The notes beneath the pieces are model-generated. The model ran no database searches, had not been told where the DNA came from, and was given only the letters and a program-made list of their open reading frames with translations. Positions 13,112 to 15,963 of a stretch of DNA of 64,000 nt are shown here, piece after piece. Source of the DNA: Nitrospira sp. (GTDB lineage: Bacteria; Nitrospirota; Nitrospiria; Nitrospirales; Nitrospiraceae); the NCBI GenBank assembly GCA_015709715.1, contig CP054184.1, forward strand, positions 372,001 to 436,000. The letters run 5' to 3'. Position numbers and translations under genes: made by a program. Numbering within the stretch: position 1 is the first letter of the stretch; each line of letters begins with the position of its first letter.

Positions 13112-14065
13112 ATGTCGACCCATTCCCAGCGGGCGGATGCTCGCACCGTCACCGTCCAAGGCGTCACCCTGCATCTGGCCCAACCGATGACGATGACGCA
13201 GGACTGGATCGGCAACCGGGAGATTCTCAAACAATTGCTCGCCTGCTGGCTCGTCATCGACGAACGCGACCTGCCGCTCTCTCCGCGGATCACCGGCCAG
13301 CCGGGAATCGGGAAAACGACCCTGGCCATGGCCGGCGCCCGCGAGCGCAAGCAGGACCTCTACGTGTTTCAATGCACGGCGGATACCCGTCCCGAAGACC
13401 TGCTGGTGACGCCGGTGCTGGCCGAATCCGGCAGCATTACGTACCACGCCTCGCCCCTCGTGACGGCCGTCCTCACCGGCAGCATTTGCGTGCTCGACGA
13501 AGGCAATCGCATGAATGAAAAGAGCTGGGCCTCCTTAGCCTCGCTCCTCGACCATCGGCGTTGTGTCGAGTCGATCGTGGCGGGCATCCTCATCCAGGCC
13601 CACGAGAATTTCCGCTGTTGCGTCACCATGAACGAAGACGCCTCAACCTACGAGGTGCCGGATTACATCCTCTCTCGCTTGCAGCCGACCTTGGGCATGG
13701 GCTTCCCCACGAGGGATGACGAGCTCGCGATTCTGCGTTACCACCTGCCCTTTGCGCCGGCCGAGATGTTGGCCTTGACCGTCGAGTTTCTGCAGGAGGC
13801 CCATCAGCTCAGCCTCGACTATTCCGTGCGGGACGGCATTCATCTGTTGCAGTATGCCCTCAAACGTCGCGCGCAGGATCCGGCCCATCCCCTGGCCGCC
13901 GACGCCGCCTGGCAGGAAGCCCTGATCAAGGTCTTGGGCGAGGAAGCCCTCGACCTCCCGGCGCAGTCTCGTCGCCGGCAACGCGCCCTGGGTGATCGGC
14001 CCCTCCCGCAAGGGCTTGGTGATTTCTTTTTTGAGAGCGACGACCCTCTGCACCCCGGCCGATGA
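13112..14065 (+). CDS. MoxR-type AAA+ ATPase
   Basis: The ATPase of about 317 residues has Walker [10 protein letters not shown] (about 62-70), Walker B-like CVLDEGNRM (about 127-134), a sensor-1 region in [10 protein letters not shown] and an arginine-finger-like LSRLQPT. These place it in the MoxR/CbbQ/NorQ helix-2-insert group, which remodels partner proteins. The start chosen is the ATG just before [16 protein letters not shown]; an open frame extends further upstream but into the divergent promoter region. Its stop overlaps the start of the next gene by four bases, so the two proteins are almost certainly partners. No von Willebrand factor A protein, the usual MoxR partner, is adjacent. 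Confidence 0.8.
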
Positions 14066-15963
14066 TGGCAGCGCCCGCATCACGCCCCAATTCCATCTTT
14101 CGCCTCTCGCCGCGCCTCGACCTGTTCCCCATCCTCCACGGGAGCGGAGACATCGCGCAGGAAGTGCGGGAGCGGTTGATCAGCCGCCCGGTCGATTGTC
14201 TGGCGGTGCCGCTCCCACCGTCTTTCGAGCGACCGCTCGAAGAAGCCGTCGCCGACCTGCCGACCATCAGTGTGATTGTGCAGCAGGAATCTCGATCGGA
14301 TGGCGGCACCGCTGTGAACTACGTGCCGGTCGATCCGTGTCAACCGGTCATCATGGGCATCCGGGTCGCGATGGGTGAAGGCATCCCGCGCGCCTATATC
14401 GATCGTGAGGTCGTGCCATTCCAGCCCCTCCCCTTTCTGTCGCCCGACGCCTATGCGCTGAAGCGCCTGCCCTATGCGGCCTATGTCGCCGCCATGGTGC
14501 CGATCCTGAATCCACCGCCCGAAGGATCGCAGCAAGCGGCACGCATCGCCTGGATGGCGTTCCAACTTCACCAGCTGGAGTTGGAATACGACTCCATCTG
14601 TTGCCTCTGTCACCTGGCCGACTGGCCCTGGATTCGCCAGGCCTATCAACAGCGGGCGGAATATCAGATTCCCGTCTCGACGGCGGATCGTCCCGAACGA
14701 TACCTCGTCGAGCCGTCGACGCTCTATTTTGTCTTGGGTGAACTGCCGTTCATCACCGAACTCTACGAACGCCGCCGCGCCACGCTCCACTCGGATCGCC
14801 ACCTGTCGATCGATGGGATCAAGGAACTGCTGTTGGCCGCTCGAAGCCGTTGGCAAGCCGCACACGATGCAGACGGGAAATCGGTGCCCACCTGGGTGAC
14901 ACCCCACCTGCTCCAGCAATACCTGCAGTACGTGCGTAACCACGCTTTATTGGACCGCCGCCTCACGCCCGATCTCTACACGTTGGTGCTGGCCGCCAAA
15001 CAGATGGCCGGAGATGATTTCGCCATCCACCTGCTGGACATCGCCAAAACCTATGGATATCAGGAGGACGGGCCTTCGTATCTCCCCCACGTCTCCGCCG
15101 GTCTCGACCGGCTGGCGCTCCCGACCGACGAGGTCGTATCCGCCACCAACCGGCTCCAGGGGACTCCGTTGGTCTGGCGTTCGTTGGCGCTGCGCCCGCA
15201 GCCGCCGAAACAGGTCAGCCGACGCTGGTCCTATTTATGGAATCCGCACCGCCAATGTTCGTGGCCTCCGGAAGACAGCAAGATCGAAAGCTTCCACACC
15301 CACGTCCGCGAACAGGCCAAGGCCATCATCGGGTCGGATTTGGCCAAGGTCGAAAAGTTCACCACCTCGATCAAGGACGGCATCGATCTGCGCGAGACCC
15401 TCCGCCACTGGTACACACGCCATCAGCCGCGGCGCTCGCGGAACCCGGAGATCTATGTGCGGGAAATTCCGCCGGCGCGGGGCAACGTCGATACGGTCAT
15501 TTTCTTGTTCGATACGCCCGCCGATCCAGACACCTATAGCTGGCAAGCCACCTGGTACGCGGAACATGCGCAGGAATCCACCCTCTGCTTCTATGCAACA
15601 TCGTTCTTGAACCACATGATCGCGCCGGGCATCGGACAGTCACGATACGGAGGGGCCCTCTTCATGTTTCCTCCGCGCCCCATCCCAGACATCTGGCACG
15701 ACGAGGCGCTTGGCTTTGCCAAGACGCTCGAGGAACGGCTGATCGCCGCCGGCGCCGTGCATTCTCGCGAGGCCCACCTCGCGCTGGTCACGCCGGTTCC
15801 GCCTCGGGCAGCCTGGCGCCGCATTGCCACTCATTTCGGCCGCCGCATCGTCCCGCTCCCCTTGAGCCGATTTTCTGGCCAACTGATCGATCGCCTGCGG
15901 CGGTTCCACGTCCTGAACGGGCACGAGATCCGCAGCTTCGCCGCCCAATTCATTCGTGAGTAG
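14062..15963 (+). CDS. Unrecognised 633-residue MoxR partner, possible TraB/ChaN-like N-terminus
   Basis: No family is recognised with certainty. The N-terminal part (about 20-140) reads like the TraB/PrgY/ChaN/EreA fold: [15 protein letters not shown] with a histidine where the family has its GxxH, then VDCLAVPLP, then [11 protein letters not shown], the typical second acidic motif. The middle (150-370) is mostly helical with a Cys pair ([11 protein letters not shown]). The C-terminus (about 450-630) contains alternating strands ([22 protein letters not shown]) and no membrane segment or signal peptide. It overlaps the MoxR ATPase stop (ATGA). DUF5682-type proteins in MoxR/VWA loci have a comparable N-terminus; that link is inference. 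Confidence 0.75.

Follow-up and report, generated by a model that had tools for sequence, protein, structure and literature searches.

MoxR ATPases are believed to depend on partners of the VWA type. A locus in the genome of a Nitrospira sp. raises the question of what such an ATPase might do when it is coupled to a large protein of a different kind: here the gene for a MoxR-like ATPase overlaps that for a 633 aa protein in which no VWA domain can be recognised. The locus lies within a 64,000 nt stretch of contig CP054184.1 (assembly GCA_015709715.1, positions 372,001 to 436,000 of the forward strand), referred to here as the window. Its features, in window coordinates, are as follows.

12247-12930, divergent: LysM gene, upstream of the ATPase-partner pair
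13112..14065, + strand: gene for an AAA+ ATPase of the MoxR/AAA_5 kind, 317 aa (ATG at 13112, stop codon at 14063-14065)
14062..15963, + strand: partner gene, 633 aa (ATG at 14062-14064, stop codon ending at 15963)
14104..14661, + strand: TIKI/TraB-superfamily-like domain, partner residues about 15-200 (from DUF5682 hhalign alignment, fold comparison and column counts)
14662..15051, + strand: helical region, partner residues about 201-330, still alignable to DUF5682/YehM
15208..15960, + strand: C-terminal domain, partner residues 383-633, without known family and the most conserved part of the protein
15969..17981, + strand: ligA, encoding NAD-dependent DNA ligase, the tandem gene directly after the partner

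The two genes of the pair share 4 bp (ATGA, 14062-14065), an overlap that the first-pass annotation of this DNA had placed exactly, as it had the gene boundaries. Both can be taken as real genes: of the 28 other genomes of the genus, 27 have the partner at 77-81% identity. The same annotation described the pair as standing alone, which does not hold: ligA starts 5 bp beyond the partner stop codon on the same strand, and for this reason the pair is probably co-transcribed with it. Of 60 Nitrospirales loci (a few of which represent one genome fetched twice), 58 share the order of lysM followed by ATPase, partner and ligA, with gaps mostly of 5-30 bp. Such a tandem could mean that the pair acts with LigA in ligating or repairing DNA; yet in the loci of Geobacter, Desulfobacterota and Acidobacteriota ligA is not a conserved neighbour, and in ten relatives ligA is present but the pair is missing. 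As the arrangement is limited to one order, this link was rejected, and a shared role with the ligase seems most improbable. Rather, ligA is probably a neighbour kept in Nitrospirales only, and not part of the ATPase-partner system.

Judged from the arrangement of these loci, the pair is vertically inherited within Nitrospirales and has been lost as a unit, because its site between lysM and ligA is fixed, sites without it are clean, with lysM directly beside ligA in all ten of the pair-less genomes sampled, and one genome (G054; L055:8001-8466) retains between the two flanking genes a shrunken relic of the partner, which brings residues 158 and 469 together, with the ATPase absent. With its fixed site and co-loss, the pair is best read as an old, dispensable, chromosomal housekeeping or stress function in Nitrospirales.

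This history bears on the suggestion, made in the first-pass annotation, that the pair could be a defence or conflict system. Predicted conflict systems do include MoxR ATPases with a partner (PMC7159879), and an anti-phage or conflict role resembling that of the MoxR-VWA ternary systems would suit both the location of one partner copy on a Neochlamydia plasmid, directly behind an ATPase, and the patchy presence of the pair among families. However, the patchiness comes from clean loss at the lysM-ligA site, which holds the pair in single copy throughout Nitrospirales; variable effector domains are absent; the only match in PADLOC was to a P-loop (E 0.0088), not above noise, and no defence system was identified by it; and there are no phage records of the pair, the two matches to viral contigs looking like host DNA. 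Given the stability of the site and the lack of mobility, the defence reading is disfavoured and we regard it as distinctly unlikely. On the two IMG/VR contigs concerned (L189:1362-4580 and L190:125-1954), the partner is found beside integrase or phage structural genes, and the sequences look like host DNA at the ends of prophages.

The description of the first gene product as MoxR-like was well founded. It matches AAA_5 (E 7.5e-17), and its motifs are intact: Walker A (GQPGIGKT, residues 62-69), Walker B (VLDEGNRM, residues 127-134), sensor 1 (TMNED, residues 172-176) and a likely arginine finger (SRLQP, residues 188-192), the key positions being invariant across 78 sequences. With the AAA_5 domain and all four of these motifs, it is by sequence a MoxR/AAA_5 ATPase. 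The solved structures closest to it are those of Midasin, CbbQ and NorQ. In a phylogenetic tree, the pair ATPases cluster together (100/98) and are distinct from YehL, CbbQ-like, MRP and ordinary MoxR proteins. The tree joins this group to YehL, and BLAST similarity between the pair ATPase and YehL is absent; as the join is weak (82/79) and the branches are long, a common yehLM-like ancestor for both genes is not established. The genome from which the window derives also has a CbbQ-like AAA_5 gene (G000:C1:3021663-3022067); its product and the pair ATPase belong to different MoxR families.

The partner, used as a single query, had no match in Pfam, NCBIfam, PADLOC, PHROGs or PDB. When 63 members of its family were scanned singly, 38 matched PF18934 (DUF5682) with an E value of 1 or better, the best being 1.9e-9, and five matched TraB. 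Profile-to-profile comparison with hhalign (A2 against A3) aligned partner residues 18-330 with DUF5682, one of the profiles that the first-pass annotation had proposed for comparison, with a probability of 97.5 and an E value of 4.8e-12; residues 331-633 had no alignment to YehM/DUF5682. By this profile evidence the N-terminal part of the partner is a member of DUF5682 (PF18934, YehM). The window protein is not itself a full-length member, having no PF18934 match (curated cut-off 26 bits), and full-length DUF5682 matches were absent both from its own genome and from 11 pair-bearing genomes.

Comparison of folds points in the same direction. The predicted structure of the partner is good (pLDDT 81), and VIA-align matched residues 2-250 of the model to HopBA1 (Z 7.1 over 145 residues), PMT (Z 6.0) and RRSP (Z 5.9 and 5.3), all of them TIKI-superfamily structures (PMC6254334). 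Z scores of 5-7 are, taken alone, moderate and in the range that the tool calls uncertain, and Foldseek with the whole model returned no match under E 0.1 (best E 0.16); nevertheless, because the independent DUF5682 profile match agrees with the fold comparison, residues 1-200 are likely to carry a TIKI fold. The top structural match of these residues (model md01581cbde84) was 8b6h_DQ, a subunit of Tetrahymena mitochondrial complex IV (Z 9.4-10.0), which may itself have a TIKI-like fold. No ChaN or EreA structure was present in the fold table for the partner, which does not speak against kinship with those proteins. The initial description of the partner as TraB-like over its first 140 residues and unrecognised over the other 490 was therefore right as to the character of the N terminus, for which the TIKI-superfamily fold matches and the DUF5682 profile now account, but not as to its extent: likeness to DUF5682 continues to about residue 330, leaving roughly the last 300 residues unrecognised.

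Enzymes of the TIKI superfamily that are active have a 2His/2Glu active site (PMC6254334). The window partner keeps H26, but P50 replaces the glutamate and D187 replaces the second histidine, such that the set found in active enzymes of the TIKI/TraB superfamily is incomplete. Across Nitrospirales, position 50 is proline in 58 of 61 sequences and position 187 is aspartate or glutamate in 60 of 61. Outside the order (alignment A2), His26 and GxxH187 are kept in 49/62 sequences and Glu50 in 61/62, and in 13 members, mostly Acidobacteriota, both histidines have been lost together. The first glutamate of the motif, which would lie two residues before His26, was seen in no member. The domain appears to have been disabled at least twice, and the loss of the glutamate and the second histidine suggests that it is probably a pseudoenzyme in Nitrospirales. 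Three of the four motif positions do survive in relatives, as would be expected if the partner were a hydrolase whose TIKI domain cleaved a peptide or ester and relied on the ATPase for activation or for the supply of substrate. Such an enzyme is nevertheless unlikely, given the replacement of Glu50 and H187 in nearly all 61 Nitrospirales, the missing histidines of the 13 mostly acidobacterial members, the want of the first glutamate throughout and the C-terminal domain, which stays intact where the TIKI-like residues are lost.

That C-terminal domain is where conservation is concentrated. Of the 114 columns conserved at 95% or above, 75 fall in residues 383-633, compared with 22 in residues 1-200 and 17 in residues 201-382. 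The 61 Nitrospirales sequences all share ten residues (C399, S400, E404, D405, E409, E501, H502, E505, Y529 and G530), most of which are invariant or nearly so in other phyla too; the domain is intact in every member that has lost the TIKI-like residues. As most of the invariant residues sit there, it is probably the functional core of the protein. Residues 383-633 modelled alone gave a pLDDT of 83.7 and a pTM of 0.77, and comparison of this model with known structures by Foldseek and VIA-align revealed no convincing fold, the results containing many weak RNase H-like rows (RuvX, Argonaute, integrase and Prp8), all with Z of 3.9 or lower.

The first-pass annotation had also held that the partner is not a VWA protein, and in agreement with this no VWA domain was matched in any of the 63 family members scanned. 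Nor was there a conserved VWA neighbour around the pair across the loci surveyed, and VWA_CoxE in the window's own genome was below threshold; the VWA domain with a MIDAS motif (DxSxS), in partner or neighbour, by which a MoxR-VWA pair is defined was not found. A more elaborate possibility is raised by E. coli, in which the row of genes consists of yehL (AAA_5 ATPase), yehM (DUF5682), yehP (VWA_CoxE) and yehQ (SWIM). With yehP missing here, the C-terminal half of the partner could stand in for it, making the protein a fusion of YehM and YehP, the C-terminal domain of which would be a VWA domain altered past recognition and devoid of the MIDAS motif. A D-x-R-x-T-x-R stretch and the next strand, ending in Asp, are in register with the region before the YehP VWA (single-comparison P 0.023). 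However, profile comparison gave probabilities of only 0.3% and 2.1%, further VWA_CoxE sequences from the phylum being too divergent to help; all 63 members lack a VWA match, and DxSxS is absent; and the predicted strand order, in which the first helix comes only after three or four consecutive strands, does not resemble that of a VWA domain. We consider a fusion of this type very unlikely.

Whether the two proteins belong together functionally can be judged from their distribution. Within the phylum, 47 of 295 genomes have the partner, in one case as the relic, and the ATPase occurs at 53% identity or above in exactly the 46 genomes with an intact partner. Scanning GTDB genomes brought the number of confirmed relatives to at least 552. 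Almost all of the best 80 belong to other phyla; these 80 comprise Geobacterales, further Desulfobacterota and Acidobacteriota, plus single cases in Acidimicrobiia, Fimbriimonadaceae and Nitrospirota. In 74 of these 80 loci, the ATPase was found near the partner within the fetched locus, usually directly upstream; for the remaining six, which first seemed to be ATPase-less, an ATPase with 64-70% identity is encoded at another place in the genome. Another genome of the phylum (G216; L201:4782-10265) has an ATPase that is 34% identical, followed by two tandem partners of 698 residues that are 40% identical to each other, one of which aligned over 563 columns with the family profile (probability 98.0, E 1.6e-13). 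They make up a second, distant branch of the family, in which the pairing persists. The ATPase and partner very probably work together.

Apart from clade-specific neighbours, nothing else is conserved around the pair. In Geobacterales, hemH lies upstream of it in L069, L070, L077, L080, L090, L091, L093 and L094, some of which also have hemE and a radical SAM gene. A haem link based on hemH or hemE in these approximately eight related loci was set aside, as the gaps are roughly 170-300 bp or more and only one clade is involved.

The reading that we favour, with a probability of around 0.6, is that the genes form a two-gene AAA+ remodelling module, in which the ATPase acts with a dedicated partner made up of the TIKI-fold and C-terminal domains, and which in this lineage is vertically inherited rather than a mobile defence system. 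Like other MoxR proteins, the ATPase would assemble into a hexameric ring, and the partner would fill the place of the VWA proteins in NorQD, CbbQO and RavA-ViaA, binding the target and coupling it to the ATPase as a co-chaperone or adaptor might. In Nitrospirales and in the acidobacterial group the TIKI-like domain, its catalytic residues being lost, probably only binds a ligand or peptide, with a predicted helical connector leading from it to the C-terminal domain. The result would be ATP-driven remodelling of one dedicated protein, most likely in the form of assembly, activation or cofactor loading.

The two outcomes that the first-pass annotation had named as telling against a new system did not arise: no characterised family covers the full partner, and conservation of the pair is strong. 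The pair is a real, widespread and undescribed two-gene unit that contains an unnamed conserved domain and is best placed among the remodelling systems made of a MoxR ATPase and a partner. It is kept together across several phyla, even where the genes are unlinked, with a partner that is not a VWA protein. At a little short of even odds, it may represent a class of AAA+ machine that is widespread but undescribed: a TIKI-fold enzyme or pseudoenzyme, joined to a new conserved C-terminal domain, would take over from the VWA protein as co-chaperone of the MoxR ATPase, with proteins of the E. coli YehM type as a distant branch. For further work it provides two genes, a defined interface that can be probed and a natural series of losses at the TIKI active site.

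Among known systems, the pairs NorQ-NorD, CbbQ-CbbO and RavA-ViaA, all of the MoxR-VWA kind, similarly combine a MoxR-clade ATPase with a partner of its own in a two-gene unit, but here no VWA domain is detected in the partner and the pair ATPases are a separate clade. With the TIKI/TraB/EreA/ChaN superfamily the partner shares the fold predicted for residues 1-200 and, in most relatives outside Nitrospirales, His26, Glu50 and GxxH187; it differs in that the active site is degenerate in the window protein and the domain forms part of a bigger protein that is linked with an AAA+ ATPase. The MoxR-vWA ternary conflict systems, which involve VMAP, iSTAND, FtsH and beta-propeller components (PMC7159879), likewise combine a MoxR ATPase motor with a large partner, whereas the pair described here has no VWA component, third conserved component or variable effectors, and its chromosomal site is stable.

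Another close system is that of E. coli, where yehL-yehM-yehP-yehQ also begins with an ATPase gene followed by one for a large protein with a YehM/DUF5682-like TIKI N-terminal half; only these first two of the four positions have counterparts at our locus, which is without a yehP- or yehQ-like gene. Certain plasmid loci show the same ATPase-DUF5682 order with VWA, DUF5691 or DUF4132 neighbours. In loci L143-L153, DUF5682 is accompanied by DUF4132 or DUF5691, SWIM and VWA genes in orders that vary, and these sets are often plasmid-borne. Among the papers in the library searched there was none on DUF5682 or its plasmid gene set, and nothing informative, nor any described function, for yehLMPQ. 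Overall, the two genes are best read as an AAA+ remodelling pair resembling YehL-YehM and operating with no separate VWA protein, and work on them would also be relevant to yehLMPQ of E. coli, which is uncharacterised.
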